Made by a program: the position numbers and the translations under genes | Part shown: piece after piece, positions 1 through 44,459 of the stretch | How the letters are laid out: each line of letters starts with the position of its first letter | How positions within the stretch are numbered: the stretch's first letter is position 1 | Notes under the pieces: model-generated | Seen by the model: the letters and a program-made list of their open reading frames with translations, nothing else | Databases searched by the model: none | What the model was told of the DNA's origin: nothing | Source of the DNA: a virus | Reading direction: 5' to 3' (one strand) | Virus record (IMG/VR): IMGVR_UViG_3300020156_000044 | Coordinates: 1 to 44,696 of that record | DNA length: 44,696 bases

Positions 1-736
1 CTTCCCTTGCGGACTGTTCCGGCGTCTTCTGTTTAGGCTGTCTTGCCTCAAACTGTGAGATAAGATGTTCGCCTAATGCCTTGGCATCAATGGGCTGATT
101 AACCCCAATGTCAGAAAGATCAGTGCCAGACATATGGAGCTTTGTCAACATATTACGGACAGCTTGCTTGGGATCAAGCTTAATCAACGCTCTATATTGC
201 AAAGCCTCCTTGTATTCTTCATCTGTCAAGCCATGAGTGACTTGAAGTTGTGACTTCTCCTTGAGTGCATTATACCTCTCCAGAAGAACTCGTCCAGCAC
301 TAACTACTTTCTCATACTCTTGGGCAACTCTCTTGTTCCCATCCCGAGAGTTATAGAGAGCCTTCTTTAGTTTCTCGAAGACTGCTCTTGGCTTACCCGC
401 AGCAAAGAGAACTTTTCCGTCACTGTCGAGAAGGTTACCTTGAGCATCAGCCTTAAAACTAAAGTTCTCCTTAGTTTCATCCTTTGCTACAGGAGTTGTA
501 GGAGGAGTTCGCTGCTGTTGCTGATCTTCGTCGTCGTCGTCACTCTGCTGCTGCTGCTGATCATCATCAGCATCATCATCATCATCGTTCTGCTGTTGCT
601 GTTGATCATCGTCATCATCCCCAAGATCATCATCGTCTTGAGGAGGAGTGATCAATTCCTTTTCGTCGTCACTGTCGTCCTCCGTCACTTGGCTGAGGAG
701 GCTGTTGCGGAGGTCGTCCTGTTGTGCCTTGGGCAT
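1..736 (-). CDS. Acidic scaffolding-like protein (runs off the left edge)
   Basis: Open frame of 245 codons from ATG at 736 to the window edge. Upstream AGGA lies about 8 bases from the start. The N-terminal third is very acidic and low in complexity, with alternating runs of Asp and Gln (about residues 35-75). A helical, charged region follows. Position between portal and capsid, plus acidity, is what podoviral scaffolding proteins show, so scaffold is an inference from order and composition. The start lies inside the portal gene (65-base overlap). Joining window ends 1 and 44,696 adds nine codons and then a TGA that overlaps the ATG of the next gene at 44,681, giving about 254 residues. Confidence 0.7.
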   Translation of the reverse strand, partial: MPKAQQDDLRNSLLSQVTEDDSDDEKELITPPQDDDDLGDDDDDQQQQQNDDDDDADDDQQQQQSDDDDEDQQQQRTPPTTPVAKDETKENFSFKADAQGNLLDSDGKVLFAAGKPRAVFEKLKKALYNSRDGNKRVAQEYEKVVSAGRVLLERYNALKEKSQLQVTHGLTDEEYKEALQYRALIKLDPKQAVRNMLTKLHMSGTDLSDIGVNQPIDAKALGEHLISQFEARQPKQKTPEQSARE

Positions 737-2660
737 TGCTCTGTCCTTTCGTGATGTTCGCCAAAGCTTCCTTTTCCAACATATCCCAATCTTCTTGAGT
801 CACAACTGTTCCGAATGCCGTCTGGAACATTCTCAGAAGAATGCGAAGTGTTGCTCCGGGGGCAGCTTGTCCCATCTGCCCGATAGATTGAGAGACTGTA
901 ATTGCCTCTTTCTTCTTATATTCAGTAGTTGGCTTCTCGATGCTACCAGCAGCGATCTGCATCCTGAATTTCTGATTAAACTCGTCAACTGTCATCTGCT
1001 GAAAGTCGGCAGCTTTCTTCTGTCCGATCATTCCAGCGATCTCTTCCTTTGAATACTTGCTCACAAGGACTTCACAGATAGACCAAGCGAGAGCTTCAAA
1101 GGCATCTTCGATAGCATCAACAACTATGCCAACTGTCTCTTGACGAGTTTGTGCTGCATAAGCAACAGCATCCTGAGTTGTATTTGCTTTGAATTGTTCT
1201 CCTCTATCTACAGCACTTGTAGAAGCTGATCGATCAATTGAAGCTCGAAGATTTCGAGTGTCGAAGAGTTGTTCATATTGAACAGAAGGAGGAGCAAGAA
1301 CCTCAAGGATTTCGTTGATTTTCTTCTCACTCTTATTTGCGATGCCAATAGCTTGTGTCTCTGCTGGAGACCTCAAAGCATTGATCATCTTCTCGACTTC
1401 TTGCTTGTCGATATCCTGTGTGTTGTAGAGAATGATATTAAACACTCGATCTCGAATGTTCGCTATCTTCTTGTTGATCTTGTTGATCTCTTCAACCTGT
1501 CCAACGTAATAGCTGACTTCTCCGGGTTGGACGATATCCTCAATAGGTTCGCCGAATGGAAGAATGAAATGTCTAAAGAACCTAGACAAATTCATATCAT
1601 CTTCTTCCACCCAAAGAGGATGTTTCCAATCTTCATCTGAGAAAAGATACCTACGACGAAGGATTTTGTCGTAGTAATAGTAACACTTTATCTTGTCTCG
1701 AAGAGCAAGTGATTGCTTGTCTTCATCTTTGTGTTCCATAACTGTTTCAACAATGCGAGCCGAAACATCTTCATCTGCTGCCTCTCCATCAGGCTGTACT
1801 ACAACTTTTGTATTAGAACGGAGAGTCTTCGTTCCATCTTCATTATGTTGATAGTACTTCTGCTCTATGAAATCACGAGACTCATAGAACTCTTCTGCTA
1901 CCCAATTCGCATCAGACAAATCAGGGAGAGTACAGGAAGGGTCAACAATGAGACAGTTCGGCATTACGTTCGTGACAGCGAGTCCTTTATTTTGAGTAAT
2001 GGGCAAATCTCGATGAGCAATGTTCAACTTAGCGATGACTTCTCTAGCCTCTTCTTGAGACTTAACTTTTGTCAGATCATCCTCAAGCTTCTTAATGAAC
2101 TCAATTGCTTCTTGTCTGCTTCCATCATGAGGCTGATAATCAAGCCGCATCACTCCAAAATTCGTAAGCTGTCCGTGCATAATCCATCGACGGACTTTAA
2201 TCTTCATGTTCAAGCCGGGATACGTTGGCTTGTTCATCATGAATTTGAGAGTGTATTCAAGAGTGTCTGCGAGCTTCTTATCTTCATCCTCTCCTGTAAA
2301 TTCAATGTGAGGATTTTGCATGTAAGTTGCTCTCATCAAGGAGCGAACTGTTGTCCTGATGATGTTTTCATCAGTGTTATTCTTGAAATGGAAGTTGTAC
2401 TCGACGTCATTCTCTTTATCGACGCCTTCATCTCCGCATAGACGATACTGTCTAAATGAGGCATCCCATTTTAGATAGACAGCCTCATTCGCCTTGAGAG
2501 TATCTTTGATGTTTGTCCGAATGATCTCGCAAACAGCTTTAGGCGTGACAATGCTTTGTCCCACCGCAGGAAGAAAATCCTCTTCATCTACAGGTTCTGT
2601 AAGAGGCTCATCCTCAGGAAGGAGTTCCTCAAGAACGGCTAGTTGGGGACTTCTTGCCAT
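669..2660 (-). CDS. Portal (head-tail connector) protein
   Basis: 663 residues, the size of T7-like and related podoviral portals. It follows the large terminase and precedes the scaffold, the classical order. The protein is mixed alpha/beta with many charged helices and a Pro/Gln-rich C-terminus (about the last 20 residues). By family knowledge twelve copies form the packaging and ejection channel at one capsid vertex. The start at 2660 overlaps the end of terL by about 20 bases and has GGAG upstream. No enzyme motif is expected or seen. Assignment rests mainly on length and gene order. Confidence 0.8.
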   Translation of the reverse strand: MARSPQLAVLEELLPEDEPLTEPVDEEDFLPAVGQSIVTPKAVCEIIRTNIKDTLKANEAVYLKWDASFRQYRLCGDEGVDKENDVEYNFHFKNNTDENIIRTTVRSLMRATYMQNPHIEFTGEDEDKKLADTLEYTLKFMMNKPTYPGLNMKIKVRRWIMHGQLTNFGVMRLDYQPHDGSRQEAIEFIKKLEDDLTKVKSQEEAREVIAKLNIAHRDLPITQNKGLAVTNVMPNCLIVDPSCTLPDLSDANWVAEEFYESRDFIEQKYYQHNEDGTKTLRSNTKVVVQPDGEAADEDVSARIVETVMEHKDEDKQSLALRDKIKCYYYYDKILRRRYLFSDEDWKHPLWVEEDDMNLSRFFRHFILPFGEPIEDIVQPGEVSYYVGQVEEINKINKKIANIRDRVFNIILYNTQDIDKQEVEKMINALRSPAETQAIGIANKSEKKINEILEVLAPPSVQYEQLFDTRNLRASIDRSASTSAVDRGEQFKANTTQDAVAYAAQTRQETVGIVVDAIEDAFEALAWSICEVLVSKYSKEEIAGMIGQKKAADFQQMTVDEFNQKFRMQIAAGSIEKPTTEYKKKEAITVSQSIGQMGQAAPGATLRILLRMFQTAFGTVVTQEDWDMLEKEALANITKGQSNAQGTTGRPPQQPPQPSDGGRQ

Positions 2661-4132
2661 TTCATATACTCCGGAGTGAGGACTGGCCTGCGGAAGTTGA
2701 AGACTGATGCCTCTGGAAGGCGCGATAGCATGTATTTAATCACGTCCATCGCATGGTCATTCTTATCATTCGGTTCATCTTGTCTCTCACCTTCACTGTT
2801 CGTCTTCCAGAAGTAAGTCTGAAACTCATCCTCAATGAAAGAGAGATCATCTGCAAAGTAAATCATCGGACCTTTTTCTTGAGAGGAGTCATAATGCATT
2901 CCGACTCTTGGAATGAGATACTCTGACACCTTCATAATACCTGATCCGATGACATTCTGTCCCGGCTTGAGAAAGAGATCAAATCTGTTCTTGAGCAACT
3001 TCGCTACAGTGTCTGTAGTCTTACCAGTTCCATCGACAATTGTCCTCTTGAAAATAGCAGGGTCGCACCAGATTGGGTTATCTTGTTGAACACCATAAGA
3101 AATGCGTTCTTGTTTCTCAAGGATTTCGGAACCGATATCATCAATGCTCATATTCGGTTTATAAAAACCATCCATGATAAAGACTCGACCATAGTAATCG
3201 ACAAATCCTCCAAGATAACATGAAGGACTCACGATACCGAAATCGAAGCCTTCAACGTTATCGAGAGGACTCTTCGATCTGACAGCTTTATCGAGTATTT
3301 CATTCATGTCAGAGCGAGGGATCATATGGATCAGAGGGTTAAATTCTGGATAGACAAGCCCTTCATAGGCTGCCCACTCACCCATAAGAAATCTATTCCG
3401 CATCTGACCTTGATAGCTTGCTTCAAGACCAGTAAGGAAATCCTGTTCCAGATTGTGTTTGTTCTCATAAGTTGATCCTTCGAGAACCTCAATGATAGGC
3501 TCCATCGTAACAGGATCATGAAGAAGGTCTTCTGCTACAGTTCCTGTAGCTCGATACTTATGAAACGGCTTTACAATCTTTTTGTAGAACCAATTCGCAG
3601 TAGGATTTGCCGTCATGATTAGCCATCGAGGACCAGTCATAGGCATAGATCGATCACTGCCCTTGTAAGGAGTAGAACCACGGAGGCGACCGAGAAGATC
3701 AAGGAAATCCTTATACTGGATGAGAGGGTCTTCCATCTGATCCACGATTGCCCAATCATATGTTGCAGAGAGAAGGTTTGACGTTGTGATGCCATCAACT
3801 GACGCCTTTCCTCGCTGAGCAATATAACGAAAGTTCACAGTTGAACCATTCTTGAAGATGAGCGTGTTGTCATCTTTAGTAGGCCATCTCTTCACAGCAC
3901 TATGAGGACACCATTTATAGAACTCCTTCCTAATGGTGTCATTGAGTTTCGGATATGTCTCTCTTGCAATGAGACCATTGCATCCGGGATAATCCATACA
4001 AAGTTGAATAGCTCTAACACAGACGGCTGCGGTCTTTCCATTACCGAAGCCTCCTGCTAGAACTTGTATCTTTTTCCTGCACTGTAAGAAGCGATGGTGA
4101 AGTCCACCTCTTACGATTTTGTATTTATCCAC
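2639..4132 (-). CDS. terL: Terminase large subunit
   Basis: 497 residues, the usual length. The ATPase half shows Walker A GGFGNGKT at residues 27-34, Walker B AIVDQMED at about 128-135 and a coupling motif MTANPT near 174-179. The C-terminal half has the RNase H-like nuclease pattern: GFDFGIVSP near residue 295, an acidic YFADDL stretch, and KNDHAMDVIKY near the end. It cuts and pumps DNA into the prohead through the portal encoded directly downstream. The start overlaps the upstream tail-protein gene by 8 bases. This is the safest call in the late region. Confidence 0.95.
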   Translation of the reverse strand: MDKYKIVRGGLHHRFLQCRKKIQVLAGGFGNGKTAAVCVRAIQLCMDYPGCNGLIARETYPKLNDTIRKEFYKWCPHSAVKRWPTKDDNTLIFKNGSTVNFRYIAQRGKASVDGITTSNLLSATYDWAIVDQMEDPLIQYKDFLDLLGRLRGSTPYKGSDRSMPMTGPRWLIMTANPTANWFYKKIVKPFHKYRATGTVAEDLLHDPVTMEPIIEVLEGSTYENKHNLEQDFLTGLEASYQGQMRNRFLMGEWAAYEGLVYPEFNPLIHMIPRSDMNEILDKAVRSKSPLDNVEGFDFGIVSPSCYLGGFVDYYGRVFIMDGFYKPNMSIDDIGSEILEKQERISYGVQQDNPIWCDPAIFKRTIVDGTGKTTDTVAKLLKNRFDLFLKPGQNVIGSGIMKVSEYLIPRVGMHYDSSQEKGPMIYFADDLSFIEDEFQTYFWKTNSEGERQDEPNDKNDHAMDVIKYMLSRLPEASVFNFRRPVLTPEYMKWQEVPN

Positions 4133-5696
4133 TGATTACTCCATTCTCTCCTACAGAATAGTTAACAAGAGAGTAAGGCTCACCATCAAGCTCTCCTAAA
4201 TTCTCTAGAACATCTGCTTCAATCTCATCTTCATGATCAGTAGGATCATTTGGAGGAGGAAGCGCTGTAGAGTAATCCATACGACCATGCTCATAGAGAA
4301 AATTTGACACTTCCGGTGAACTGTCTACAACATTTGTATACCCATTTGTCGCTGATTTGTAAACAACAGGACCGAAGCGATCTCGATAGGTATGGAAAAT
4401 AATAGAGTGCGTACCAAAGAACTCGACACCCAAAACAGGGTTTTCTCCATAATTGTCATAGAATGAGTAACCGAGGTCCTTGGTTAAAATCTTCCTGTAT
4501 CCTTTGTATGCAAACTTCGTTGCTACAGGAGGTGTAGGAAGCATGAAAGAAAGCATGATTTCTTTGTTTCTAGCAGAAGCTCCTATAACATGAACATGCT
4601 CAAAATTATTCCCTGCTCTAAGTCCAGCGAGAACCTTAGCTTTATATGCTCCATACCAACGAGTAGCATTACCATCAAGATGACCATTGATTGCTGTAGG
4701 AAGTCCTGATGCTGGAATAGTCATCTTCTGTGGAACAGCATGAGCAGGACAACACAACCAAACTCGATCTTGGTTGATAGCAAATTCATTATGAAATTGC
4801 ATGACTGCATTACTTTGTGTTGTATTTCTTGCAGCCCAATTTCCTCCTCCCGGTTGAGATATTAAGAGAGGAGGACGATTTGTCTGTCCCCAAGCAGACA
4901 TGATTGTATCAATGAACAGAAGAAGATTGATCAACGTTTGATCATATACAGACCAGTGACTAGATACTGTCTGTTGCATCTCAGCTTGACCCTGATCAAA
5001 GGTGATAGCAGCGAGATTGAATGTCGTTGATCCTAATGTAGAGCCAAGCTTTGTAAAATAGCTTTGTGTTCTCTGCTTAGGAATGAAAGTTCCACCACTT
5101 TCTCCATCATCGTCGATCAAATCTTCTAATAGCATTCCTCCAAAACCATGAACGCAAGCAATAGCATTCTTTGTTTCAGGAGTTCCTGCTAAACTACGAC
5201 GACGATAGAAGTCATAGACGAGACCGATAACATCAGCTTCGCCATTGATGCCAGAAGTTGGTGTTCGTCCTGTGTAGGTGTCGGGATCGTATCGATTTCC
5301 ACTAGTTGGATTATCAATATCCATTGTAGCGAGAAGAGTTTGAAGAGTTTCACTTCCTCCAGATGAAGGTGATCCTATGTTTCCAAAAGGATACCACGTG
5401 TTATCTTCTCTTGCCGCTCGAACAGATGAACCAAGAGCATGAGCAACAATACTCCAAGGGGCTGTCCTTGTTTTAGGAGGATGAGCAACACCTCCTTGAG
5501 CAAGTGATTGACCAAATCCCATGAAGACTGGTCTGTCAGAACTCATCCAAGGAAGTGTTGGCACTACAGCGCCTGTAGCAGCAGCAGAATAAACCGATGC
5601 TGCCAAATCTTGAGCTTCTCTAACAGAAGTTGGTATCCCACTAATGGGATACCTTCCTCGATTGATTGGTCCAGATAATCCTGTAGACCTTCTCAT
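4125..5696 (-). CDS. Tail protein with SGNH/GDSL-type esterase features
   Basis: 523 residues. A GQSL motif at about 62-65 in the context FMGFGQSLAQGG resembles block I of SGNH hydrolases, with Ser64 as candidate nucleophile. A later DQGQAEM resembles the QGE block of sialate-O-acetylesterase-like enzymes. HLDGNATRWYGAYKA resembles the His-containing block V. It lies between a 1069-residue spike/fibre gene and terL, with ATGA-type overlaps at both ends. The likely role is deacetylation of host surface polysaccharide from the tail. The fold is inferred from short motifs, so substrate and activity are unproven. Confidence 0.6.
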   Translation of the reverse strand: MRRSTGLSGPINRGRYPISGIPTSVREAQDLAASVYSAAATGAVVPTLPWMSSDRPVFMGFGQSLAQGGVAHPPKTRTAPWSIVAHALGSSVRAAREDNTWYPFGNIGSPSSGGSETLQTLLATMDIDNPTSGNRYDPDTYTGRTPTSGINGEADVIGLVYDFYRRRSLAGTPETKNAIACVHGFGGMLLEDLIDDDGESGGTFIPKQRTQSYFTKLGSTLGSTTFNLAAITFDQGQAEMQQTVSSHWSVYDQTLINLLLFIDTIMSAWGQTNRPPLLISQPGGGNWAARNTTQSNAVMQFHNEFAINQDRVWLCCPAHAVPQKMTIPASGLPTAINGHLDGNATRWYGAYKAKVLAGLRAGNNFEHVHVIGASARNKEIMLSFMLPTPPVATKFAYKGYRKILTKDLGYSFYDNYGENPVLGVEFFGTHSIIFHTYRDRFGPVVYKSATNGYTNVVDSSPEVSNFLYEHGRMDYSTALPPPNDPTDHEDEIEADVLENLGELDGEPYSLVNYSVGENGVISG

Positions 5697-8600
5697 GAAG
5701 CGGCTCTCACATAATCAATCATGCAGATAAATTGCATACCTGTTGCAATGTTTGCTTCTGTAAGAGGCGTTCGTCCTGTCGTTCCTTGTGAAAAGAGTGA
5801 AATCGTCTTGTCTGTTCCAATTTCACATGACAAGCCAGCAGGAATGTTCACTCCATTCGATACGACTACTACAGAACCTGTAGTAGCTGCCCCCGGAGCA
5901 GGCCAATCGGCTGAGTCTGCATTGTTGATGATCGTTAGGTCTCCTGCCGTAGGAGCAGAAACAGTCCCAAGTGTAACATTAAGGATCAGTTTGTAGAATG
6001 ATGTAGCATCCACAGAAATCCTACTAGCATTCACACTTACAGGGATACCTGTTGCCGATCCACCAGTTCTTACAACTGGAGTAACTGTTACAGGAGGGAA
6101 ACGAAGAGGATTTCCTAGAGTGTCAAAGCTGTCACTGATCCTAATCCTATCCCAAGCAATAGAAAGTTCATTAGAACTTACTATTCCAGTGAGACTGTCT
6201 ACAGTACAACCAACAATTGCTGCTCGTCCCGGTGATCCAGATGGAAGTTGCAGAATTGTTGTAGCTGTTGCACTTGAAGGAATACGGCAACCATTGATGA
6301 AAGCGAATGACGTATCATCTTCACAACGAATGATTGCATCCGTCAATCCTGCTCTACCAACAGTAGTAGGAAGTCCTTTGACAAACTCAACATATGCTGC
6401 ATCCGAGATGTAAGCAGCATATTGTCCTGTCCATTTCACTTCTGAGAGGTCACAATTGAATACGTCAGACTCAGTTACCCTAAGTCCCCATTGTGAACTC
6501 TCAAATCCTGCTTGTAGCTCATCGACTTTACACCGTTGATCTACAGTTACTGTAGCACCAGCACTGACAGCAGCAGTCATAGGCTTCACAACAAGATACT
6601 TAACTCCTCCCATGTTAACTCTGGTCGGTCCGTTTACATGATTTACTGAAACTGTGACGGCGGCTCTCGATTTTTCATCTACAATCGCCCAAACAGTTCC
6701 AATTTTAACCTTGTCCTTCATGTAAACGTCTTGAGGAAGCTCATCCACAAGTGGAATGATCGTGTCACCTATAGCAACATCGTCAGCAAGCTCTCCAGCA
6801 ACGAAACTGTTCCCTACAATTTGAATACAAACGTTACTTGTATCAAATCCGGGCTTATATATGCCTGTTCCACCTTCTGCTGGACCAACAAGACCTTGAT
6901 TACAGTTGATATTTCTGAAAATTCCTCCTCTGGATTGTTCATAGCTCAGAGTTCCAACACCCTCATATCTATCAACTTGAACAACTGCATGAGAATGTTC
7001 AACTTCTAGCCCTCGACGAGCATCTCCTCTGACCATCAAATGTCCAATGCGAACTTTTCCAAGACATTCTAGGAGATGAATACCAAAGACACTATCGGGA
7101 GAAATAGGATCATCTGTTGAATTGAGTGTTTCAATGTCGAAGCCAACACAATCAACGTCATACTCAAGCTGATAGCTCTTCGTGACTCCAAGATTTCCTG
7201 TCCATTGCGGCTGAGGAGATATCGCAACGAGATCAGCAAAGTCTACAGGGTGACTACTAGAATAAAGGATACCATCCGCGAGGGCTCTAGTTACACCAGA
7301 AACTTGAAGTTCTTCGTTATCCTCAAAAGCTCCAGAAACAGCACTGAGATACAGTGTTCCTGTTGTACCACTGTCAGTCTGATCTATTACAGTTCCTGTA
7401 GCACCAGAGGTCAAACCGACAACGACACTCCCAACGGCGAAGTTGATTGTCTGATTGTCATAGTTAAGAGCATCAGCGTAAGTGGGAATGTTTGCTGACG
7501 TTCCACTGTAGAAGAAACCACTACCAGCAACGGTTCCTACACCTTTGATATAGAAACCTCCATTGTTTGCTTCTGTAGAGAAGGCTCCCTGCCAACATTT
7601 AGTTGCCTTGATGAAGCCTATCTTCATTCCTTTACCGATTGTGCCTCTCTGTCTTTCAACAGTGAGTGTATCACAATAGTCTCCACAGGAAATCCATCCG
7701 CAACCAGAAGCAATACCGTTGGCAGTATAAGGCCAAACAGTCATCTGAGAACACGAAGCGAACTCATATGGTCGAAGAATACGAGCGAAACATACTTCAT
7801 TATCTATAGGTGTAAGATAATAAAGGTCCATCCTTGATGGATGATATGTTTCGAGATACGTTGCCTGCGTTTTGTGTGGATTGTTTTCGTCATCAAATCC
7901 ATCAGCATCGGGATCATATTTGAAACCGAAATGGAATAGATTGATGATATTGTTTGTTGTGTTTGTTTTACCAAACAGACCAATACCAACCTTACAATTC
8001 TCAACATATCCCATGTAAGCAATCATGATATTTGATTGCGACTGCACACCAGCAGAAGTATTCCTGCCAGCGCGCATGATATGGATATGAAGATCGATAT
8101 CGGTAATCAATTCTTGTGTTTCAGTTGTTCCAAAGTCTCCAACTCTGATGATACAACCGAAAGGACCAAGTCCTCCTCCTTGACCAAGGATAGGCATGTC
8201 AGGACGAGCAATCGATGGCTTTGTGACAGCACTTCCACCTGAGTTAACAGCATGCCATTGACCGATAATCTTTAGATTGATGAAGCCTGAACCTGTCGTT
8301 CTAAAAACAAAGCCACATTCAATGTGACCCATAAGAGTTCCATCGTAGTAATACTTCGTCCAAAGAGTGCAAGAGAAAGGATTGAGACCCATCCAACGAG
8401 TGAAGAGTTCAAGTTCACCATCGATGAAATGATCAGAGTCAATATAACCAACTAGACCTTTCTCATAAAGATATTCATCAAGGATAGACATGATCTCTCG
8501 ATCGTCTGTTCCTTGAGTTCTAATAAATCCTTCATTTGATGTAACTCCTACACCATTCCCTCCTCCATTAGAGAGTCCAGATTGAAGTTCATATTCGAGA

Positions 8601-9234: not shown

Positions 9235-9250
9235 TGCTACAACTCCTGTA

Positions 9251-9760
9251 TCAGGTATCAGCTGAGATGGTTTTCACAGTTCCATCACCGAAGATGACTT
9301 TAAGATCGCCATCAGCAGAGTCAACAAAGAGCTTTGCAAGACCAACTGTTGCTGAGGGGGCTGTGATGCCATCTCCAATACCAAGATGGCCCGAGAAGAA
9401 GCCATTCAGATAACGAAGAGCAGTCGTTCCAAGGCTGTATTGGTTATCAGAACCGGGATTTACGCTAGAAGTAGCGAAATTCATCCGATTTGAGCCGTTG
9501 ATGTTGATCGTAAAAGATGATCCAGCCTCTATTCTGACTGCTCTTTGTGTTCCACCATTGGTTTCAGTACCAATTTCGAGAGCATTGGACTGCCAATGAA
9601 TGTATCCTCGTTCATAATTACTCCCGGATAGGGAGTTGTATGTGTGAAATTGATCAAGACGAGGTACTCCTGAGGGATCATCTTCCAAAGGATAACGAGG
9701 AGAAGCAATGTGAGCCTCTGCCTTTGACCAAGAACGTGATTTATCTGCTACGATGGGCAT
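9251..9760 (-). CDS. Tail-fibre-like protein
   Basis: 169 residues. The second half (GSDNQYSLGTTALRYLNG, then GHLGIGDGI) follows the repeat pattern common in phage tail fibres and head fibres, with aromatic residues every 10-15 positions. The N-terminus resembles the neighbouring 111-residue protein. The start is set by AGGAG embedded in the exact palindrome 9761-9775, which alone fills the gap between the upstream TAG and this ATG. Probably a host-recognition accessory of the tail. Confidence 0.6.
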   Translation of the reverse strand: MPIVADKSRSWSKAEAHIASPRYPLEDDPSGVPRLDQFHTYNSLSGSNYERGYIHWQSNALEIGTETNGGTQRAVRIEAGSSFTININGSNRMNFATSSVNPGSDNQYSLGTTALRYLNGFFSGHLGIGDGITAPSATVGLAKLFVDSADGDLKVIFGDGTVKTISADT

Positions 9761-9775
9761 CTACAACTCCTGTAG
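9761..9775. repeat. Palindrome/ribosome-site cassette between two late genes
   Basis: Minus-strand CTACAGGAGTTGTAG fills the gap from the TAG at 9,776-9,778 to the ATG at 9,758-9,760 exactly. AGGAG at this point is the only ribosome site for the tail-fibre-like gene. Confidence 0.85.
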
Positions 9776-10366
9776 CTAGCGTCTCTTTCCGACTTCGATG
9801 TTGATATTCTTTGTATCTTCACCGTCTTCAAAGACAATCTTCAAAGACTCGAAAGAGGAGTCATCTTTATTCCGTCCATAGAGAGTTTCATAATGAAGGC
9901 CGCTGCGATCCATGACGTCTGCGGCAGCTTTCATACGAGCATTCTCATTTTTCGCTTTAACAGCGAGGTCAAGCATCGACTCAAGGGCTGCTGGAGCAAA
10001 AGCAGCAATCTTTGCTTGCAGAGATGACGAATTTGTAGAGATAAATTGACTAAAAAGTATCTCGAAGGTCTCCTGATAAGCAGGCATATCCTTCAAATAC
10101 TGAATTTGTTCAATATCTATCCCAACTAGGATGGAAATTTCGTTGTCTGTTAGACCCATAAGGTGATAAACAAGCACAACATTGAGTGCAGTCTGTGTTT
10201 TAGGGTCAGTTGGAAGCTCTTTAATGCTTCGTTGATGATCAGGGGTGATCCTTTTCGCTATCGGAGGACCGATGCTAGTCGAATTTACATCAGGAATAGC
10301 ATCGGTCTTGATGATAACTTGCCCCTCGCGAGTTACGTAGGGGTCACCTTTCTTTGCGAGGGGCAT
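9776..10366 (-). CDS. Terminase small subunit candidate (helix-turn-helix)
   Basis: 196 residues. Residues about 70-100 (LTDNEISILVGIDIEQIQYL) look like a helix-turn-helix of the kind found in small terminase subunits. A helical segment and an acidic C-terminus follow. It lies in the operon that carries terL, though separated from it by tail genes. By analogy it would recognise the packaging site and load TerL. AGGAG for its start sits in the palindrome at 10370-10384. It could instead be a transcription regulator of late genes. Confidence 0.5.
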   Translation of the reverse strand: MPLAKKGDPYVTREGQVIIKTDAIPDVNSTSIGPPIAKRITPDHQRSIKELPTDPKTQTALNVVLVYHLMGLTDNEISILVGIDIEQIQYLKDMPAYQETFEILFSQFISTNSSSLQAKIAAFAPAALESMLDLAVKAKNENARMKAAADVMDRSGLHYETLYGRNKDDSSFESLKIVFEDGEDTKNINIEVGKRR

Positions 10367-10384
10367 TTGTTACAACTCCTGTAG

Positions 10385-15440: not shown

Positions 15441-15463
15441 ACATCTTCTGTAGGAACATCGCC

Positions 15464-34686: not shown

Positions 34687-35299
34687 CCTCATTTTCCTCT
34701 TCTCTTGGTTTACCAAGATCATCAAGTGTTAACTTTTTCTTTCCATCCTCTTTCGCCCCAATGGAATTGAACATTTCACTGATAGGAGCATCTGGATTTT
34801 TGATAACCCTATTCCAAAATGTCATTCTTTGTGTAGGCTTGAGAGCTTGATACTTCTGAATGTCTCTATCAGAAGCCTCTATCTCCATTCCGATCATCTC
34901 CGCAGCTTGGAGTGGATCAGGAATAGCCAGAAATTCGTCTTTACCGACCCCTTCGATGGTATCTTTCCTGAGATTAGCCATCACCTTCGGATCGTTCTTG
35001 TCAAAACCTCTCCTGCCTTCTCGTCTCATGATCCCTTCATTCATGATCATGTTAGCGATCGACTCAGGACCCGGTTGAGGCATTCCTCCTACAGGTGCTG
35101 TAAGCTGTTCACGAGAAGTTTGATTGAGATACCTTCCACCTCTTGGGTTTTTCATGCCGGGGTCTTTTCGGCCCTCTTTTACCATGGTCTTATACTGTTT
35201 AGGCTTCGCCTTAGAAGGGGTTCCATCCTTCTTTGTCTTTGCTCGGCCTTCATTTCCTAGGATTTCATCTAGGAGCCAATTCGGAACTTGTCTAGGCAT
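34679..35299 (-). CDS. Virion-region protein, function unknown
   Basis: 206 residues. Basic N-terminal half (KTKKDGTPSKAKPKQ), helical C-terminal half ending in an acidic EEENEDE. GAGGAAAT is upstream. The near-exact palindrome 35,089 encodes Thr-Ala-Pro-Val. Basic-then-acidic pattern could suit DNA contact inside the capsid. No family recognised. Confidence 0.6.
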   Translation of the reverse strand: MPRQVPNWLLDEILGNEGRAKTKKDGTPSKAKPKQYKTMVKEGRKDPGMKNPRGGRYLNQTSREQLTAPVGGMPQPGPESIANMIMNEGIMRREGRRGFDKNDPKVMANLRKDTIEGVGKDEFLAIPDPLQAAEMIGMEIEASDRDIQKYQALKPTQRMTFWNRVIKNPDAPISEMFNSIGAKEDGKKKLTLDDLGKPREEENEDE

Positions 35300-35700: not shown

Positions 35701-35715
35701 CTACAACTCCTGTAG
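35701..35715. repeat. Palindrome that is the whole intercistronic gap and the ribosome site
   Basis: On the minus strand CTACAGGAGTTGTAG sits between TAA of the upstream gene and ATG of the downstream gene, nothing else. Stem CTACA/TGTAG with GGAGT in the loop would present the Shine-Dalgarno. The same cassette occurs at 9,761-9,775 (TAG to ATG) and, with changed outer bases, at 9,237-9,251 and 10,370-10,384. Confidence 0.85.
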
Positions 35716-36621: not shown

Positions 36622-37068
36622 TTAAGCCTCCATCAGATGCACTGATCCAACATACCTAAATCCGAACTTTTGTGCAAATTTCTCAAAAGTCTCGGGACGG
36701 AGGCCCGTCACGTTCATAAGTCGGATTTGTCGAACTTTCCTATTCTTCGCCCATTCGATGTAACTTTCTACAAGTTCTGTAGCAAGTTGAGTGTCGCGAT
36801 GATCTGGATGGATATAAAAGATGTTATCCACAGCCATTACTTCATGACTAAAGATGTAAGCAGAAAGAGAGGCACAAAAGCCTCCAACAACCTGCCCATC
36901 TTTCACTGCTACATTCACAAAGAAAGTTAAATTGCGAAGGTTTCCATGAAGGAGATCGCTCATCTTTGTTCGACTGAAACGAATATCCTTCATCGATGAC
37001 GTAGAGAGATGCTGCTCGATTAAATCAAGCAGCACCTGAATATCTTGTTGCTCGTATCGACGGATCAT
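36622..37068 (-). CDS. GNAT-family acetyltransferase
   Basis: 148 residues, the usual size. VDNIFYIHPDHRDTQLATEL (about 80-100) contains the acetyl-CoA-binding R/Q-x-x-G/A-like motif A; beta strands and the C-terminal KFGFRYVGSV follow the GNAT fold. Such enzymes occur in the structural operons of several podoviruses, where targets are unknown. The palindrome 36,768 encodes Thr-Glu-Leu-Val in motif A. AAGGATTA is upstream. Confidence 0.75.
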   Translation of the reverse strand: MIRRYEQQDIQVLLDLIEQHLSTSSMKDIRFSRTKMSDLLHGNLRNLTFFVNVAVKDGQVVGGFCASLSAYIFSHEVMAVDNIFYIHPDHRDTQLATELVESYIEWAKNRKVRQIRLMNVTGLRPETFEKFAQKFGFRYVGSVHLMEA

Positions 37069-37288: not shown

Positions 37289-37569
37289 TTGTCTGACTCT
37301 CTCAAAGCTCTTGCCACTGTTGCGTAAGCAGTCGCGGCTACTACAAGTGCTGTAGAAGAGTCAACTGCTGATGGATCACTACAGACGACCTCTGCACCCT
37401 TCCATGCAGCTTCAACTTTACTATTTGTCTCTCCAGCAGCGGAAAGAGCAGTGTAAGCAGTTGTCAAAGCTGCACAAACCTTCGGCAGATTGTCTCGGAT
37501 TGCGGTGTCAACCGTAGGAGAGCAACCTGCTACAAGTGCTGTAGCGAGAAAGATAAGAAACAGTCTCAT
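37285..37569 (-). CDS. Small lipoprotein (outer spanin-like)
   Basis: 94 residues from ATG 37,569 (GAGGAAGAC upstream, ATGA overlap). MRLFLIFLATALVAGC is a lipoprotein signal with lipobox LVAG-C, cut before Cys. The mature part is Ala/Thr-rich and helical. With the adjacent coiled-coil membrane protein it suits the outer half of a two-component spanin. A palindrome encodes Thr-Ala-Leu-Val within the signal peptide (37,530); another copy is at 37,341. Confidence 0.65.
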   Translation of the reverse strand: MRLFLIFLATALVAGCSPTVDTAIRDNLPKVCAALTTAYTALSAAGETNSKVEAAWKGAEVVCSDPSAVDSSTALVVAATAYATVARALRESDK

Positions 37570-38452: not shown

Positions 38453-39130
38453 TTAGTACATCTTTGAAGAAGAGGCACCGAGAACCATATTCGCAAGTCC
38501 TGTGCTATTAACTGCTACAGAAATTGTAGAAGCAGGCTGTCGATAGTCCCATCCCCAAGCCATTGTGTGTGTGCTGGATTTTAGTGTCGCTTCTCCTCTC
38601 TTTGTCATGTTAACAAATGATAGAGACGAATTAGCAGCCTTTACTGCTGCTCCAATGATAATCCCTCTCTCTGGAATGTCTAAATTCACGAGAAGATTAT
38701 CTGTTGAGTTTCCAAAGGTTTCTTCGCCGTCATGACTCGTCCTACTAGGAAAAGAAAGATTAAGCACTACAACATGAGCGATTGTCTCAAAGTTCGTAGT
38801 AAAAAATATCTCTCCTACAGAACCTGTAGCAACTTCGACCACTCTAGCAAAACTAGAAGCTAGCAATGTCGTCCCTGCTCCCCCATGAGCAAAAGAGCAA
38901 TCTGCATCTGATGCTTCAACACCAGCTATTTCAATGTTCTGAGCAAGAACTGATGTAGGAACAGCAGCACTATTCTTTCCAACAAGACCTACTATGATTG
39001 CTATCCTTCTTCCGGGGTATGCATTTCCTAGATTAGCATCAAAAGTGTGCGTTAAACCATGCACAGTCGTTTGCTCATCTGTTTGATTGATGAGCTTAGC
39101 ATGATTTGTTGGGAAAAGAGCAGCAATCAT
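38453..39130 (-). CDS. Tail-region protein, function unknown
   Basis: 225 residues from ATG 39,130 (ATGA overlap); the longer frame is rejected. Beta-rich with Gly, Ser, Thr and Asn, no helices of length, as in virion decoration or receptor-binding domains. Palindromes 38,515 and 38,815 are in its coding sequence (Thr-x-x-Val). Probably a tail or fibre-tip component. Confidence 0.6.
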   Translation of the reverse strand: MIAALFPTNHAKLINQTDEQTTVHGLTHTFDANLGNAYPGRRIAIIVGLVGKNSAAVPTSVLAQNIEIAGVEASDADCSFAHGGAGTTLLASSFARVVEVATGSVGEIFFTTNFETIAHVVVLNLSFPSRTSHDGEETFGNSTDNLLVNLDIPERGIIIGAAVKAANSSLSFVNMTKRGEATLKSSTHTMAWGWDYRQPASTISVAVNSTGLANMVLGASSSKMY

Positions 39131-39975
39131 TGCATCGCCTGTATAATGAGAAGACTTCCTGCCTGCGAAACACTGCAAAAACATCTAAACTTGTGACCAT
39201 TCGTCGTTGAGAATGAGTCTCCAATAACTCTAGTCCAATTGTTTAAACTGATGGCTCCAGCAGATGCTCCATTTGTTATGTCAACAATGATCATTCCTGT
39301 GTCTGATCCCGGAGCGAAGGCATGAGCCCCATTGTTTGTGTAATATTGGAGAGGACCATCTCCCATATCAAGAACAATGTTTGATCCAGTTGTTGTGCCA
39401 AGATTTAAAGGAATAATCGACAATCCTCCAGTGAAGGTTTGATCTTGCACATTTTTCATTAGAACACTTCCTGTTCCTGAAAGATCAGAAAATGCTCCAC
39501 TTGTTGCCACTGTTGAAAGACCAAGCAAAGACTTCTGTACTAAGGCATTTGATGCTGTTAGCATAGACCTTCCAGCAGAAGTAGAATTGACTCTGGTGGC
39601 AACACTGCCAGACGTAAACATTACAAAGTCACCATTAACAGGTGACAAAGCAGCTATCGCATCAAGAACAGCACTTTGAGAAGCAGAAGAAGTCTCCCAA
39701 TATGTAGGATGGGCTGCCCTGTCGAGACTCATCACTCCAGATGCTCTAGAAGTGTGGTCTACAGCGCAACGCCATAGGCTTCCATCAACTTCATCGAAGA
39801 GTTTCTGTCCAATGGTGTAAGCAGTCGAATTCTGCCAAACTCCATCTGCTACAATACCTGTAAGCGAATTGAGTGCAGCATCGATTGCTCGAAAGTTGTA
39901 GTTAACCTCATCGTGCCAAGGACTGTTATTGAAATTCGGCAAGAAGAGATTGAGATAAGTTGTGAACTCGCTCAT
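39127..39975 (-). CDS. Tail protein with carbohydrate-binding-like module
   Basis: 282 residues. Residues about 44-95 (DGVWQNSTAYTIGQKLF, then WRCAVDHTS, then YWETS) follow the CBM5/12 chitin-binding-type pattern (W...Y-x-x-G-x-x-V...Y...W), also present in the next gene. The rest is beta-rich. It probably helps bind surface glycans. Coupled to both neighbours by ATGA overlaps. Confidence 0.65.
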   Translation of the reverse strand: MSEFTTYLNLFLPNFNNSPWHDEVNYNFRAIDAALNSLTGIVADGVWQNSTAYTIGQKLFDEVDGSLWRCAVDHTSRASGVMSLDRAAHPTYWETSSASQSAVLDAIAALSPVNGDFVMFTSGSVATRVNSTSAGRSMLTASNALVQKSLLGLSTVATSGAFSDLSGTGSVLMKNVQDQTFTGGLSIIPLNLGTTTGSNIVLDMGDGPLQYYTNNGAHAFAPGSDTGMIIVDITNGASAGAISLNNWTRVIGDSFSTTNGHKFRCFCSVSQAGSLLIIQAMQ

Positions 39976-41771
39976 CGCTTGTAAGTTCCCATCGTTATCA
40001 GGAGTGTGATGACTGAGAATTTAAGTCTTTTCGTTGTCGATCCTTTGAAACGCAACTTCAAAAGCTTAAATTCACAAGGAAATCCCCATAGTCGTTCATC
40101 GGCGGCTCGTCGACCACCACCATAAGGCTGATCTCCTCCACCATAACCGAGACTGCTTCCTGCAACGAACTCAAGAGATATCGCAGGATCATCTTCTTCC
40201 TCAGCAGTATATCGAATGTTATCGACAAAGGCTTCTACAGTAAATGTAGCTGTGCCCTCTGTATCAATAGCGATAAAGCTGAGCCTCTTTTTCTTCGCTC
40301 TCTTTCCGGTATCAGTCCAAGGAAGCTCCCAATCAAAGTCAATTTCTTCGCCTTGATAGAGCGTCCAATACTGATTGGTGAGATCGTTATCAAAAATAGC
40401 AGAAGTGTGATCTTCGAGACAGATATATGTCTCATCTTCATGAAGAACTTTATCTCCTACTACATAAGCTGTAGCAGTAGCCCACTCGTCATCATAATTA
40501 CCAATGAGATCGGCTGTGAAGTCTTCATCTTCAAAGACACTATTCCCGTACTGGTAAATCCTGCTCCCACTAGCAAGAAACACCCTTCCTCTGGTTGATG
40601 ATGCTCCAGCGACAAAGTTCATGTCACAGAAAAAGCTCCATCCAACCTTCTTAAAGCCTTCATCGAAAGTCATGTTATAGATGTTATACTGATCTTCTCC
40701 TTTCAAGAAGAACAAAATCTCACCTTCGATCTTGTTATAAACAGCAAAAGAGGCAAGCCTGTTCACTCCATTCGTAGGAACATCAGCAATATAACCAGTC
40801 TGGATTTTGTTAGACAGCTTTTTATTCTCTAGTGCAGAACCAAAAGCATTCCTATTAGCCTTCCAAACACCTTGCTCATCAGCAAAAATCAAATCTTGAT
40901 CTGCTGCACAGATAGTTCTATGACTAATCGTGCCCTGATCAGGAAGAGTATCAAGGATGCGAGGCTTGTGAGTTGTATCATCATACTCTCCAAGGACCAC
41001 TACAAGACTTGTAGTAGCGAAGTGTACAATGAGGAAGTTCCTGAAACTGCTCAATCCTCGAAGATCACCACCAGTTTCAGCTGAATAGCTTGCGATGTTG
41101 ATAGATAGACTATCATTCGGAGCATCATCTCCGGGCCATGTGCCACTTGTTCCAGCAGATGAAATATAAATCTCGTCTGGAGATGCTTCAATGCCAGCGA
41201 CTACGAGATAATTTCCTACAGTAGTTGCATACTTACCAGTAGGTGTAAAGACGTTCGATCCTGTAGGAATATCTTGTAGATACGTTGCAACATGTGTCTT
41301 ACTGACAATGATAGGCTTATCTACTCCATTATGAATGGTGAGTTCATTCTTAAATTCTGTAAAATCTACAGACGTGAATGTATTCCCCCATCCATCAGGA
41401 TTACCAGCTAAAGCTCCAGCAATAGTATCATTCCAGATAGCCGTCATAGTTCCACTACCATCGATAGTGCAAACTTCTCCTTCACTCGTGACGACTACGA
41501 ATTTGTCTCTGAAATAGATAAAATCGACAACATCTCCTGAGACAACGCTGCTAACGTCCCAACGGAATTTAGTACCCCAACGCACAGCCATTGTGCTGTC
41601 AGAGTCTCTATGAACATTCTTCATAACTTTCGCATATGAAGTGTTCAAATGTAGATCGTGATCAGTCAAATTGAGTCCTCCACTGAAATCTTTCAGCGAG
41701 AACTCGTCAGGAATTGGTCTGGCGCGTCGAGTGATCTTAACTCGGGAGCGTCCGAACGGTGAGAGGGACAT
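39972..41771 (-). CDS. Tail tubular protein B / stabilisation-like protein
   Basis: 599 residues, close to T7 gp12 size, following a tail-tube-A-like gene. The body is beta-rich with many Asp/Thr/Ser repeats and several GxY/YxxxG blades, compatible with a propeller-type nozzle. About 427-475 (EWATATAYVVGDKV, then ETYICLEDHTS, then YWTLY) is an inserted CBM5/12-like module. Basic N-terminal 20 residues. Structural role at the tail tip is inferred from size and order. Confidence 0.7.
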   Translation of the reverse strand: MSLSPFGRSRVKITRRARPIPDEFSLKDFSGGLNLTDHDLHLNTSYAKVMKNVHRDSDSTMAVRWGTKFRWDVSSVVSGDVVDFIYFRDKFVVVTSEGEVCTIDGSGTMTAIWNDTIAGALAGNPDGWGNTFTSVDFTEFKNELTIHNGVDKPIIVSKTHVATYLQDIPTGSNVFTPTGKYATTVGNYLVVAGIEASPDEIYISSAGTSGTWPGDDAPNDSLSINIASYSAETGGDLRGLSSFRNFLIVHFATTSLVVVLGEYDDTTHKPRILDTLPDQGTISHRTICAADQDLIFADEQGVWKANRNAFGSALENKKLSNKIQTGYIADVPTNGVNRLASFAVYNKIEGEILFFLKGEDQYNIYNMTFDEGFKKVGWSFFCDMNFVAGASSTRGRVFLASGSRIYQYGNSVFEDEDFTADLIGNYDDEWATATAYVVGDKVLHEDETYICLEDHTSAIFDNDLTNQYWTLYQGEEIDFDWELPWTDTGKRAKKKRLSFIAIDTEGTATFTVEAFVDNIRYTAEEEDDPAISLEFVAGSSLGYGGGDQPYGGGRRAADERLWGFPCEFKLLKLRFKGSTTKRLKFSVITLLITMGTYKR

Positions 41772-42405
41772 GCGCAGTGCGACTCCCTAGTCCTATTCCA
41801 CCCTCACTGAGGGCCGTCATAAGGTCTTGATATGACGTATCGAATAGGAGTTGAGCTTTCTGTGCAGCTGGAGGGTTAATCCCATCACTATCTAACAAGT
41901 CCCAAGCTGCTGCCTGTGCAATGACATGAGAAGGAAAAGGCACGATATCAGTGTTTTGAACAAATGGATCAGGTTTTGTTCTGGAGTAAATGTCTACATC
42001 TCCTGTAGCAGTGACAGGCCAGAACTTGATGACTCGTGTTGAAAAGTTGCTATCTCCATAGCGAATAGGTGTAAAATAAAGAGGTGTCGATCCAGTAACA
42101 TGCAAATGTTCACGACCTGCTGGTCGCCCAACAAGTCGATTTGTTCCAGATATCCTGATCTCTTTGACGTCTTCATAAGCTTTGAATGTGACGTTAGTGT
42201 TTAGGATACCTCCACTACCGGATAGAGTGAAGGTATCCCAACCACTAAGCCACTCCCAAAACCTCTTCATGAAGATCATGTCGAACTGGTTCTGGATAGC
42301 CCTCTTTACTTGTGGCTCAGTGTAAGTCTGCACTGCTGTACCAGAAACAAGACCCACAATGCTCAACACTTCCGTGACAAGGTCTTGCAAGTTTTTGTAA
42401 GCCAT
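41737..42405 (-). CDS. Tail tubular protein A-like / head-tail adaptor
   Basis: 222 residues, size and order of T7 gp11-type adaptors. The N-terminal helical segment (NLQDLVTEVLSIVG, YTEPQVKRAIQNQFDMIF) is typical; beta segments follow. It would join the portal to the nozzle. Overlaps the 599-residue gene by 35 bases. Palindrome 41,994. Confidence 0.7.
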   Translation of the reverse strand: MAYKNLQDLVTEVLSIVGLVSGTAVQTYTEPQVKRAIQNQFDMIFMKRFWEWLSGWDTFTLSGSGGILNTNVTFKAYEDVKEIRISGTNRLVGRPAGREHLHVTGSTPLYFTPIRYGDSNFSTRVIKFWPVTATGDVDIYSRTKPDPFVQNTDIVPFPSHVIAQAAAWDLLDSDGINPPAAQKAQLLFDTSYQDLMTALSEGGIGLGSRTAHVPLTVRTLPS

Positions 42406-42419: not shown

Positions 42420-43106
42420 TTAGCCAGCGTAGTGCCTGATACCGTGAAGGCCACCATTGTTATCGTCGTTCACATTGTTGTCCAACTGAACGTCGATCTC
42501 AAAGACCTTCGTGCCATTCGGTGTTCCAGTGAGGATATACGTTCCTCGTGGATCACCTGTGGTTGCTGTAGCAGGGTCTGTTACTACAGGTGCTGTAAGA
42601 GTTCCTGCCGCAGCGATCGCTCCATCTTCGTACTCACGATAGACAGCACGAGTCTTATACGGCAGACCCATTCTTGTGCCCCATCCCAAATCGATGGTCG
42701 TCGCGGCAGTGCCGACAGGAATATTCACCTTATCGACATACTTAAACGCCTTCAAACCTGTGACGGAGTTCGTACCATTGAGAGTGAGAGTCTCCCTCAT
42801 AGGTTGACCGAGATAATCTCGACCGATGACTATTACAGTACTTGTAGCAGCACCACTAGCAAGCACTGTAACATTCCGACCGAATGGTCCCATTTTGTCG
42901 GAGTCGTACAGAACATTGAGCGTCGTGATATCCCCAACCGTTGCGTTATCCGCACCATCGAGAATACCATCGGCATCAGCGAGAACGACTGCTCCAAGGT
43001 TTACCTTGTAAGGACCAAGAAGCTGACCAAGATCAGCCCCTGCCTGCATTGCGGGGACATAGTAATTGAACCCCTCAATGAAGTTATCACGCCGCCTTGC
43101 GCTCAT
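42420..43106 (-). CDS. Structural protein near capsid, function unknown
   Basis: 228 residues, beta-rich (many Gly, Thr, Val, Asn) with a Trp in LGWGTRMGL. AGGAG 8 bases upstream. Lies between capsid-side genes and the tail adaptor, so a decoration or head-completion protein is likely. Palindrome variants at 42,584 and 42,833 encode Thr-Ala-Pro-Val and Thr-Ser-Thr-Val. Confidence 0.6.
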   Translation of the reverse strand: MSARRRDNFIEGFNYYVPAMQAGADLGQLLGPYKVNLGAVVLADADGILDGADNATVGDITTLNVLYDSDKMGPFGRNVTVLASGAATSTVIVIGRDYLGQPMRETLTLNGTNSVTGLKAFKYVDKVNIPVGTAATTIDLGWGTRMGLPYKTRAVYREYEDGAIAAAGTLTAPVVTDPATATTGDPRGTYILTGTPNGTKVFEIDVQLDNNVNDDNNGGLHGIRHYAG

Positions 43107-43500: not shown

Positions 43501-43502
43501 TC

Positions 43503-44459
43503 TCAGACCTCATTGGTTCCAGAGGCGTGGGTACGATAGTTCTTCCAGCTTGCTAGCTGGTATTCCATGATGTACCGTCGGCCGATTGCGTCCATATTCC
43601 AAGGAGCGGTGAGCTTCTTCACCTTCATATTCGCAGACTTGAGAATATGAATGCTCAGGAACTCCTCATTGATGAAATAGAACTGATCAGGATGAAGAGC
43701 CTCATCGTAGATGATGGGGATACCCTGATGCGTTGTTCCCTTGATACCAAGATTGATCAACTGCTTTCCAAAGCCAGTCGATGAAAGCGAAATCTGCGTC
43801 TTGTCGCGAGCAGCGGCTCGATGAAGACGGAAGATATTCCTTCCAACGAAGATGACTGTTGGCTCAGTATCATCGACGTGGAGATCGAGGAGAATGTCAT
43901 CAAAGGCTTCCTCGATGTTATTCTCATCGAGAGCACCATTGAAGTCATATGCCGAAGGACGGAACAGAGGCTCGTTCGCCAAGTTCATTCCACCTACAGA
44001 ACCTGTAGTAGGATCGGGAGGGAGAAGGTTCGGAAGACCATTCGGGTCCTGTCCTGTGTTGAGAGTGACAGCCTTCGTCCTCTGGAACTTCTTGATAGCA
44101 TGTTCCAGAGCCTTGATCTTGCCCTCAAGAATTTTGATGATGACTGCATCACCTTGGTTCTCATCATCTTCCTGATCGGACATGATGAGAGTGCCAACCA
44201 TACGAGTCATGTTGTAGAGAACGGTGTCAAACTCACTCGTCTCATCTACAGGGACTGTATCGTAGTAGGTTGCAGTCGTCACATTCGGATTGCTGCCAGT
44301 GATGAGAGGGTTCTCAATCTCTGGTCCGCCATCTTCCATCTTAATCCTGCCCTTTGCAGCAAGATAAGTGTAGACGCCTCCTGTGAGAGTAGCCGCAAGG
44401 ATTAGTTTCTTGCGGCTGCGATTGGCCATCGCATGAATGATGGTTTCAGGGGTTGCCAT
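43503..44459 (-). CDS. Major capsid protein (HK97-like fold, inferred)
   Basis: 318 residues, position after the scaffold region. Near the N-terminus a helical region; mid-protein PTVIFVGRNIFRLHRAAARD; C-terminal IPIIYDEALHPDQFYFIN and MEYQLASWKNYRTH, with the alternating beta/charged pattern of HK97-type major capsid proteins. GGAG is 6 bases upstream and TAA of the previous gene abuts the ATG. Palindromes at 43,994 and 44,246 (Thr-Gly-Ser-Val and Thr-Val-Pro-Val). Family inferred from order and composition, no decisive motif. Confidence 0.75.
   Translation of the reverse strand: MATPETIIHAMANRSRKKLILAATLTGGVYTYLAAKGRIKMEDGGPEIENPLITGSNPNVTTATYYDTVPVDETSEFDTVLYNMTRMVGTLIMSDQEDDENQGDAVIIKILEGKIKALEHAIKKFQRTKAVTLNTGQDPNGLPNLLPPDPTTGSVGGMNLANEPLFRPSAYDFNGALDENNIEEAFDDILLDLHVDDTEPTVIFVGRNIFRLHRAAARDKTQISLSSTGFGKQLINLGIKGTTHQGIPIIYDEALHPDQFYFINEEFLSIHILKSANMKVKKLTAPWNMDAIGRRYIMEYQLASWKNYRTHASGTNEV

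Follow-up and report, generated by a model that had tools for sequence, protein, structure and literature searches.

The virus record IMGVR_UViG_3300020156_000044 (44,696 bases; hereafter the window, meaning the whole stretch of DNA that was analysed) encodes, by gene calls made within this analysis, a terminase, a major head protein, tail proteins, a RecD/Dda-like helicase and a family A DNA polymerase, together with an exonuclease, an AAA_24 ATPase and a DUF669 protein. Scattered across these genes is a palindrome, CTACA-N5-TGTAG, of which a pattern search recovers 48 exact copies between 487 and 44008, as against a mean of 0.02 and a maximum of one in dinucleotide shuffles of the window. 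The same arms at all other spacer lengths from 0 to 14 have no copies in the window. Another 21 copies contain a single mismatch, which in 19 cases affects the outermost base, and two further copies (29764 and 31525) have both outer bases changed. The core TACA-N5-TGTA is found at 69 sites with a mean gap of 644 bp, and these 69 sites are the unit of all the site analyses presented here. The preliminary description of the window had arrived, by eye, at about 48 exact and about 22 near copies, or one per about 640 bp, which agrees closely with these counts; the extended consensus, the drift between genomes, the regular spacing and the filling of gaps by near copies, all described below, go beyond that description.

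Most of the sites are embedded in coding sequence, which allows their frequency to be examined under a fixed protein sequence. Synonymous-codon shuffling within genes (200 shuffles), a codon-preserving control that had been proposed along with the initial count, yields a mean of 2.0 coding core sites and a maximum of 7, compared to 53 in the actual genes; for exact copies the respective values are 0.65, 4 and 34. Chance and codon usage as sources of the sites are ruled out by the dinucleotide and synonymous shuffles along with tetrad counts. Further, 51 of the 53 coding sites occupy a single reading frame, in which they encode T-x-x-V, while in another frame an exact copy would end in a stop codon. 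In the translated window the T-x-x-V pattern is seen 100 times where 55 are expected, and its mirror V-x-x-T only 61 times; this excess over both expectation and mirror indicates that roughly 45 residue pairs are present because of the DNA site. A comparable T-x-x-V excess is observed in the relatives described below, being smallest in G007. Hence, the sites are selected at the DNA level, against the protein-coding grain.

Table 1. Palindromic sites and genes for candidate binding proteins, in window coordinates; exact denotes CTACA-N5-TGTAG, and genomes named as keeping a site have it at the corresponding position
Feature	Coordinates	Strand	Remarks
Site	487..501		exact
Site	1208..1222		exact
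Site	1799..1813		outer base changed, TACA-N5-TGTA core
Site	2588..2602		outer base changed; same gene position in G002, G003, G008
Site	3004..3018		exact
Site	3535..3549		exact, terminase gene; kept in G002, G003, G010, L020, G008, G009
Site	4325..4339		outer base changed
Site	4523..4537		exact
Site	5564..5578		exact
Site	5869..5883		exact
Site	6541..6555		exact
Site	7387..7401		outer base changed
Site	9237..9251		outer base changed; directly upstream of gene 8899-9234, whose Shine-Dalgarno GGAG is in the spacer
Site	9761..9775		exact; occupies intergene gap; spacer carries Shine-Dalgarno GGAG of gene 9251-9760
Site	10370..10384		outer base changed; intergenic; GGAG in loop
Site	10698..10712		exact
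Site	10938..10952		exact, divergent intergenic region
Site	11120..11134		exact, divergent intergenic region
Site	11411..11425		exact, divergent intergenic region
Site	11614..11628		exact, divergent intergenic region
Site	12086..12100		exact
Site	12404..12418		exact
Site	12520..12534		exact
Site	13495..13509		exact
Site	14309..14323		exact
Site	15439..15453		exact, intergenic
Site	15959..15973		exact
Site	16433..16447		exact
Site	16928..16942		exact
Site	17370..17384		exact
Site	17883..17897		exact
Site	18769..18783		exact
Site	19154..19168		exact
Site	19687..19701		exact; kept in G002, G003, G008
Site	20507..20521		outer base changed
Site	20976..20990		exact; kept in G003, G004, G008
Site	21376..21390		outer base changed
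Site	22523..22537		outer base changed
Site	23622..23636		outer base changed
Site	24658..24672		outer base changed
Site	24795..24809		outer base changed; kept in G002, G003
Site	25384..25398		exact
Site	26586..26600		outer base changed
Site	26714..26728		exact
Site	27979..27993		exact
Site	28189..28203		outer base changed
Site	28590..28604		exact; intergenic, upstream of winged-helix gene
Site	29764..29778		both outer bases changed, ATACAAGTGCTGTAT
Site	30640..30654		exact
Site	31525..31539		both outer bases changed, TTACAGCAGCTGTAT; kept in G003, G008
Site	32245..32259		exact
Site	33013..33027		exact
Site	33698..33712		exact; kept in G002, G003, G008
Site	35089..35103		outer base changed
Site	35701..35715		exact; occupies 15-bp intergene gap; GGAG in spacer
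Site	36768..36782		exact; kept in G002, G003, G008, G009, G007; drifts towards each genome's consensus
Site	37341..37355		exact
Site	37530..37544		exact
Site	38515..38529		exact
Site	38815..38829		exact
Site	39849..39863		outer base changed
Site	40235..40249		exact
Site	40460..40474		exact; kept in G002, G003, G008
Site	41000..41014		exact
Site	41994..42008		exact; kept in G002, G003, G010, G008, G009
Site	42584..42598		outer base changed
Site	42833..42847		outer base changed
Site	43994..44008		exact; kept in G010, L020, G008
Site	44246..44260		outer base changed; last window site; kept in G002, L020
Candidate binder	28702..29022	+	stand-alone winged-helix protein, 106 aa; AlphaFold2 (AF2), Foldseek and profile hits
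Second candidate	14441..15409	+	322-aa helical protein; found only in site-carrying records
Third candidate	9776..10366	-	196-aa protein, small-terminase-like by inspection, upstream of large terminase gene; in site-bearing records covering the region

Symmetry of the site and its drift in relatives

Alignment of the window sites shows that conservation extends symmetrically past the arms to a consensus of about 21 bp, YTnCTACAGnnnCTGTAGnAR, with an invariant core. The inner bases are similar on both sides when read on the sense strand, so the site is neither asymmetric nor oriented with transcription. Relatives were collected by scans with the DNA polymerase and the head protein, yielding six complete or near-complete genomes (G002, G003, G007, G008, G009 and G011) and many fragments; most of these are metagenomic records of unknown completeness, such that the absence of a gene from a fragment tells little. 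All six relatives carry the core, and copy numbers in the seven site-bearing genomes, counting the window, run from 40 to 87. Arm sequence varies from genome to genome but always symmetrically (written out, CTACAGNNNCTGTAG and, for G007, TTACAANNNTTGTAA): G000, G002, G003 and G008 have CTACA(G/A) arms, G009 has YTACAG arms, G007, L031 and L032 have TTACAA arms, G011 has TTACAT arms, and L300 takes the form TACAGG-N-CCTGTA. In aligned genes, 13 sites of G002, 12 of G003 and 11 of G008 lie at the same codon position as a window site, where 0.3-0.4 would be expected by chance. Six genomes share the site at 36768, and its G007 copy, ATTACAACACTTGTAAC, matches the TTACAA form typical of that genome. 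This symmetric drift, including the conversion of an individual site to the G007 form, is the pattern expected of a site tracking the changing specificity of one trans-acting protein.

An RNA hairpin, acting for instance as a translational or processing signal, had been offered as an equal possibility to a protein-binding site, and the presence of GGAG in the spacer, i.e., the would-be loop, of some copies upstream of genes (9237, 9761, 10370, 35701) is what speaks for it. However, the two arms vary independently: the outer variable arm base forms 281 complementary pairs versus 290 expected under independence, and the inner one 250 versus 269. Moreover, spacer bases 2 and 4 are complementary less often than expected, both in coding (z -4.5) and non-coding copies (z -3.5), and the sites have no match in Rfam. 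Independent arms combined with anti-complementary spacers do not describe a hairpin; nor do an invariant core, copies inside genes on both strands and symmetric drift favor one. The RNA hairpin is therefore rejected, and we assign it a negligible probability. The companion suggestion of sites for a dimeric DNA-binding protein is strengthened by the symmetric consensus, the symmetric drift in each relative and the independence of the arms. As a separate observation, the spacer centre favors C-W-C or G-W-G throughout the seven genomes that carry the site. The only explanations that we can offer for this central asymmetry are that long perfect palindromes are avoided or that the binder prefers such a centre.

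The distribution of the site is confined to one phage clade. In a sister clade reached through head proteins of greater divergence (80 loci, 785 kb), there are 22 core matches where 16 are expected, no other strong palindrome is common to the group, and nine of the larger records hold either no core or one. A comparison with related phages had been suggested at the outset, and its outcome is thus presence with genome-specific variants in the relatives and absence from their sister group. In viral contigs the pattern GCTACAGNNNCTGTAGC retrieves mostly single chance copies, plus the known relatives. The fragment L030 (IMGVR_UViG_3300025018_000765) has no N5 copy and instead contains nine copies of ACAA-N4-TTGT, around ACAAAGCATTGT, most of them with AGCA or TGCT at the centre and A or T outside. 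The best score of this palindrome is 20, compared to at most 11.5 in six shuffles, and on this modest evidence it may represent the same half-site with the spacer lengthened by one base.

The geometry of the site is not exclusive to phages, which raises the possibility that the binder is a host protein, such as a global regulator or nucleoid protein, exploited by the phage. Phages of Alphaproteobacteria rich in CtrA sites offer a precedent in that they likewise carry many sites for one DNA-binding protein, which is in their case that of the host (PMC9437464). Further, Rhodobacteraceae possess MerR-type operators, GCTACAGTNACTGTAGC, which are nearly identical in both geometry and sequence, one of them lying just upstream of a gene that by inspection belongs to the MerR family; this suggests that a bacterial dimer can read this geometry. 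These operators differ in being present in one to three copies near a few genes, and the resemblance is presumably convergent. On the other hand, the CtrA sites are skewed to intergenic gaps and terminal repeats (PMC9437464), whereas the window sites are even and mostly coding. Additionally, phages whose capsid proteins are 73-85% identical have different forms of the motif, and a scan of bacterial genomes for GCTACAGNNNCTGTAGC returned, among the matches listed, isolated copies only, including the MerR-type operators. A host protein as binder accordingly appears rather unlikely. The Rhodobacteraceae palindromes themselves occur in L265 (at 1395, 4381 and 5181) and also in L177, L204, L242, L253, L266 and L269, are often paired 1180 bp apart, and perhaps belong to a mobile island for metal resistance that carries operators of its own.

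Placement and spacing of the sites

While 53 of the 69 sites lie wholly inside genes, the remaining 16 fall in non-coding DNA, which makes up only 8 percent of the window; non-coding copies are hence enriched about threefold, but promoters and short intergenic spaces are not where the sites are mainly found. Their density is close to uniform in the three operons (1.46, 1.57 and 1.43 sites per kb), shows no difference between early and late genes or between the strands, and is nearly the same in long and short genes (1.29 and 1.26 sites per kb). The last comparison rules out that the even spacing described next arises from a tendency for each gene to hold one site. In those genomes where both genes can be placed, the densest 2 kb is in or beside the region between the counterparts of genes 9776-10366 and 14441-15409.

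The coefficient of variation (CV) of the gaps between sites ranges from 0.48 to 0.68 in the seven genomes, compared to about 0.97 for random placement. None of 3000 simulations was as even for six of the genomes, with P 0.001 in G011; likewise, six genomes have no comparably abundant 5-mer that matches this evenness, and G011 has one. Among the 424 gaps pooled from the seven genomes, none is longer than three times the mean (21 expected) and a single one is shorter than a tenth of it (40 expected). In the window this regularity is a property of the full set of sites (CV 0.56) as opposed to the exact copies alone (CV 0.86, P 0.21), with the near copies occupying the gaps between the exact ones. 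Spacing that is selected independently of gene, strand and operon implies that the benefit depends on the distance of any point of the genome from a site. Such distance dependence fits organisation, marking or silencing of the whole genome, or priming sites or nuclease barriers, better than the control of single promoters.

One further reading of an even array is that it comprises recognition sites of a DNA-modifying enzyme labelling the phage DNA as self: a bipartite palindrome with a fixed spacer resembles the sites of some modification enzymes, and an even spread would label every fragment. However, no methyltransferase family was detected among the window proteins scanned against Pfam, and phages usually avoid restriction sites instead of multiplying them, making this a very improbable explanation.

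Candidate binding proteins

Among the window proteins, the stand-alone winged-helix protein encoded at 28702-29022 is tentatively proposed as the best, if weakly supported, candidate for the binder based on its predicted fold and its phyletic pattern. The AF2 model (predicted local distance difference test score, pLDDT, 80.8) shows an H-H-H-E-E-H arrangement of helices and a two-strand wing, i.e., a winged-helix fold. In Foldseek searches the closest structures are PadR/MarR regulators, which are weak matches (best E 7e-3, none below 1e-3), and no relevant Pfam family was found. The protein is free-standing in all seven site-bearing genomes, although in G003 no usual start codon is seen, whereas in seven of the seven site-less records where it was found, two of which give identical matches, the winged helix forms the C-terminus of a 412-490 aa frame. 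This larger frame is a DUF3987 protein where confirmed (e.g., L017:16443-17696); one DUF3987 profile search missed a protein that hmmscan detects, and its negatives for the family were not used. In the site-bearing clade, then, the winged-helix end persists as a free protein and the rest of the DUF3987-type protein is gone.

This loss bears on the possibility that the palindromes are replication or recombination sites, either regular starts of lagging-strand priming or Chi-like nuclease barriers. A spacing of 0.5-1 kb without long gaps would suit a distance-limited process; the DUF3987-type protein of which only the winged-helix end remains is encoded beside the DNA polymerase in site-less relatives; and none of the window proteins scanned matched a primase family. 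However, DUF3987 has no established function, and a signal read in single-stranded DNA should keep a hairpin, contrary to the lack of covariation between the arms and the avoidance of complementarity in the spacer. Chi sites, moreover, are asymmetric. We consider a role of this type quite improbable.

The second candidate, the helical protein encoded at 14441-15409, is more doubtful and is proposed on its distribution: every contig found to encode it carries sites and it is absent from all site-less records tested, and a structure search with it gave no match and no known fold. Besides this protein, those encoded at 17165-17392 and 17573-17950 are among the families that all or almost all site-bearing genomes possess and that were not seen in their site-less relatives. 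Directly downstream of the 14441-15409 gene, an 11-pair stem, TAGTGGGGAGAGCAATCTCCCCACTA (15416-15441), runs into the site at 15439 (stretch 15416-15453) and is a possible terminator overlapping that site. The gene at 15464-15691 (plus strand) codes for a small protein with an NrdR-type zinc ribbon (PF22811, 32.5 bits versus a cut-off of 27.2) followed by a likely coiled coil in place of the ATP cone. As a binder this protein is ruled out, being missing from relatives that carry sites; a scan for its relatives found none.

Function of the array and comparable systems

The above observations lead us to infer three things, namely that a protein binds the sites, that the phage encodes it, and that its function is coverage of the whole genome. 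As the probable explanation, judging from sequence conservation and spacing, we favor that the palindromes are double-stranded sites recognised by a dimeric protein, probably encoded by the phage, in a coverage-type system. The consensus would have each subunit of the dimer read a half-site of about 9 bp, the two half-sites being separated by one helical turn. The array is probably selected as a whole, such that every stretch of the genome has a site nearby, and the protein would decorate the entire phage genome at intervals of about 0.5-1 kb. This decoration could organise, mark or silence the genome as a unit, in lieu of controlling individual promoters. A narrower version, which we regard as a serious possibility while stopping short of calling it probable, is a phage chromatin or genome-marking system in which a phage-encoded dimer sits on regularly spaced specific sites, the spacing itself being selected; the phage would in this manner write the sites into its coding sequence and protein composition.

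Several points weigh against the favored explanation. There are 13 sites within 40 nt upstream of start codons where 4 are expected, and site density in the divergent intergenic region rises to 4.25 per kb, roughly threefold the average; together these leave room for a transcriptional role. The resemblance of the winged-helix protein to PadR/MarR is weak. Binding as such is deduced from the DNA sequence, and no homologous protein has a known specificity. Alignments of the head protein against bacterial genomes and against phages and plasmids, aimed at the host, gave no relative, and a host-encoded binder keeps some probability. Finally, the seven genomes share ancestry and are not independent tests.

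A transcriptional role on a genomic scale is known from the stoperators of Cluster A mycobacteriophages, i.e., L5-type repressor sites, of which twenty or more are dispersed through the genome for one phage protein (PMC9283540). By analogy, a phage repressor might act in a quiescent or early stage to block initiation and elongation along both operons. The number of sites and their presence genome-wide in both transcription units would be consistent with this proposal, as would the peak of density in the divergent regulatory region and the enrichment just upstream of starts. However, stoperators are 13-bp asymmetric sites, read by a monomer and oriented with transcription, and lie in promoters and short intergenic spaces of temperate phages (PMC9283540), as opposed to the palindromic and predominantly genic sites of the window. 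Neither tyrosine (PF00589) nor serine (PF00239) integrases were found in the seven genomes, although the phages may persist in other ways, and the silencing of one transcript needs no even spacing inside single long genes. Silencing of the stoperator type is hence unlikely, if still worth keeping in view. The likeness to stoperators drawn in the preliminary description stands as regards number and spread, and falls as regards asymmetry and orientation, intergenic preference and probably the temperate lifestyle. The SPBRE of Bacillus phage SPbeta is comparable as a conserved 15-bp element repeated in one phage genome and recognised by a single phage-encoded binder, MrpR, a repressor with a tyrosine-recombinase fold, but it differs in having about ten sites, located in promoter regions of the prophage (PMC10516654).

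The closest parallel is the 17-bp dyad repeat TGTTCGG-N3-CCGAACA of Cluster O mycobacteriophages (Corndog, Catdawg), whose function is unknown (PMC4351075). Here too, more than 30 copies of one palindrome with invariant arms and a variable centre are found in phages without an integrase, and a dimeric binder has been proposed (PMC4351075). The Cluster O repeats are less dense, at about one per 2 kb, and uneven (CV 1.11 for n=34 in Catdawg, taken as the example for spacing statistics), are often intergenic and concentrated at the right end, and have one sequence in five close relatives with no drift reported (PMC4351075), as opposed to the drift across a deep clade seen here. The present array belongs with the Cluster O palindromes in kind, and is set apart by how dense and how even it is, by its location in coding DNA and by its drift. 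The window does not appear to be of the Corndog group, since neither its head protein nor its early protein has a match in the phage collection that holds Catdawg. The initial statement that no system with this site is known holds for the site itself, but must be amended in view of this comparable dispersed palindrome. Our search of the open-licence literature turned up no phage system described as having a sequence-specific site spread evenly over the whole genome.

Dispersed palindromes with no known function had already been noted in a few phages, without a handle on their role. The spacing statistics, the symmetric drift in at least seven genomes and the absence from the sister clade make it possible to ask, in testable form, which gene's specificity shifts along with the site and why each kilobase must have one. 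If the coverage explanation were true, the array would represent a sequence-specific way for a phage to organise, protect or silence its entire genome, and a rare case of a genome-wide DNA code visibly biasing the amino-acid composition of a proteome.

Near the contig end, a low-complexity stretch (487-633) adjoins the first site, and its minus-strand frame consists of runs of M and S.

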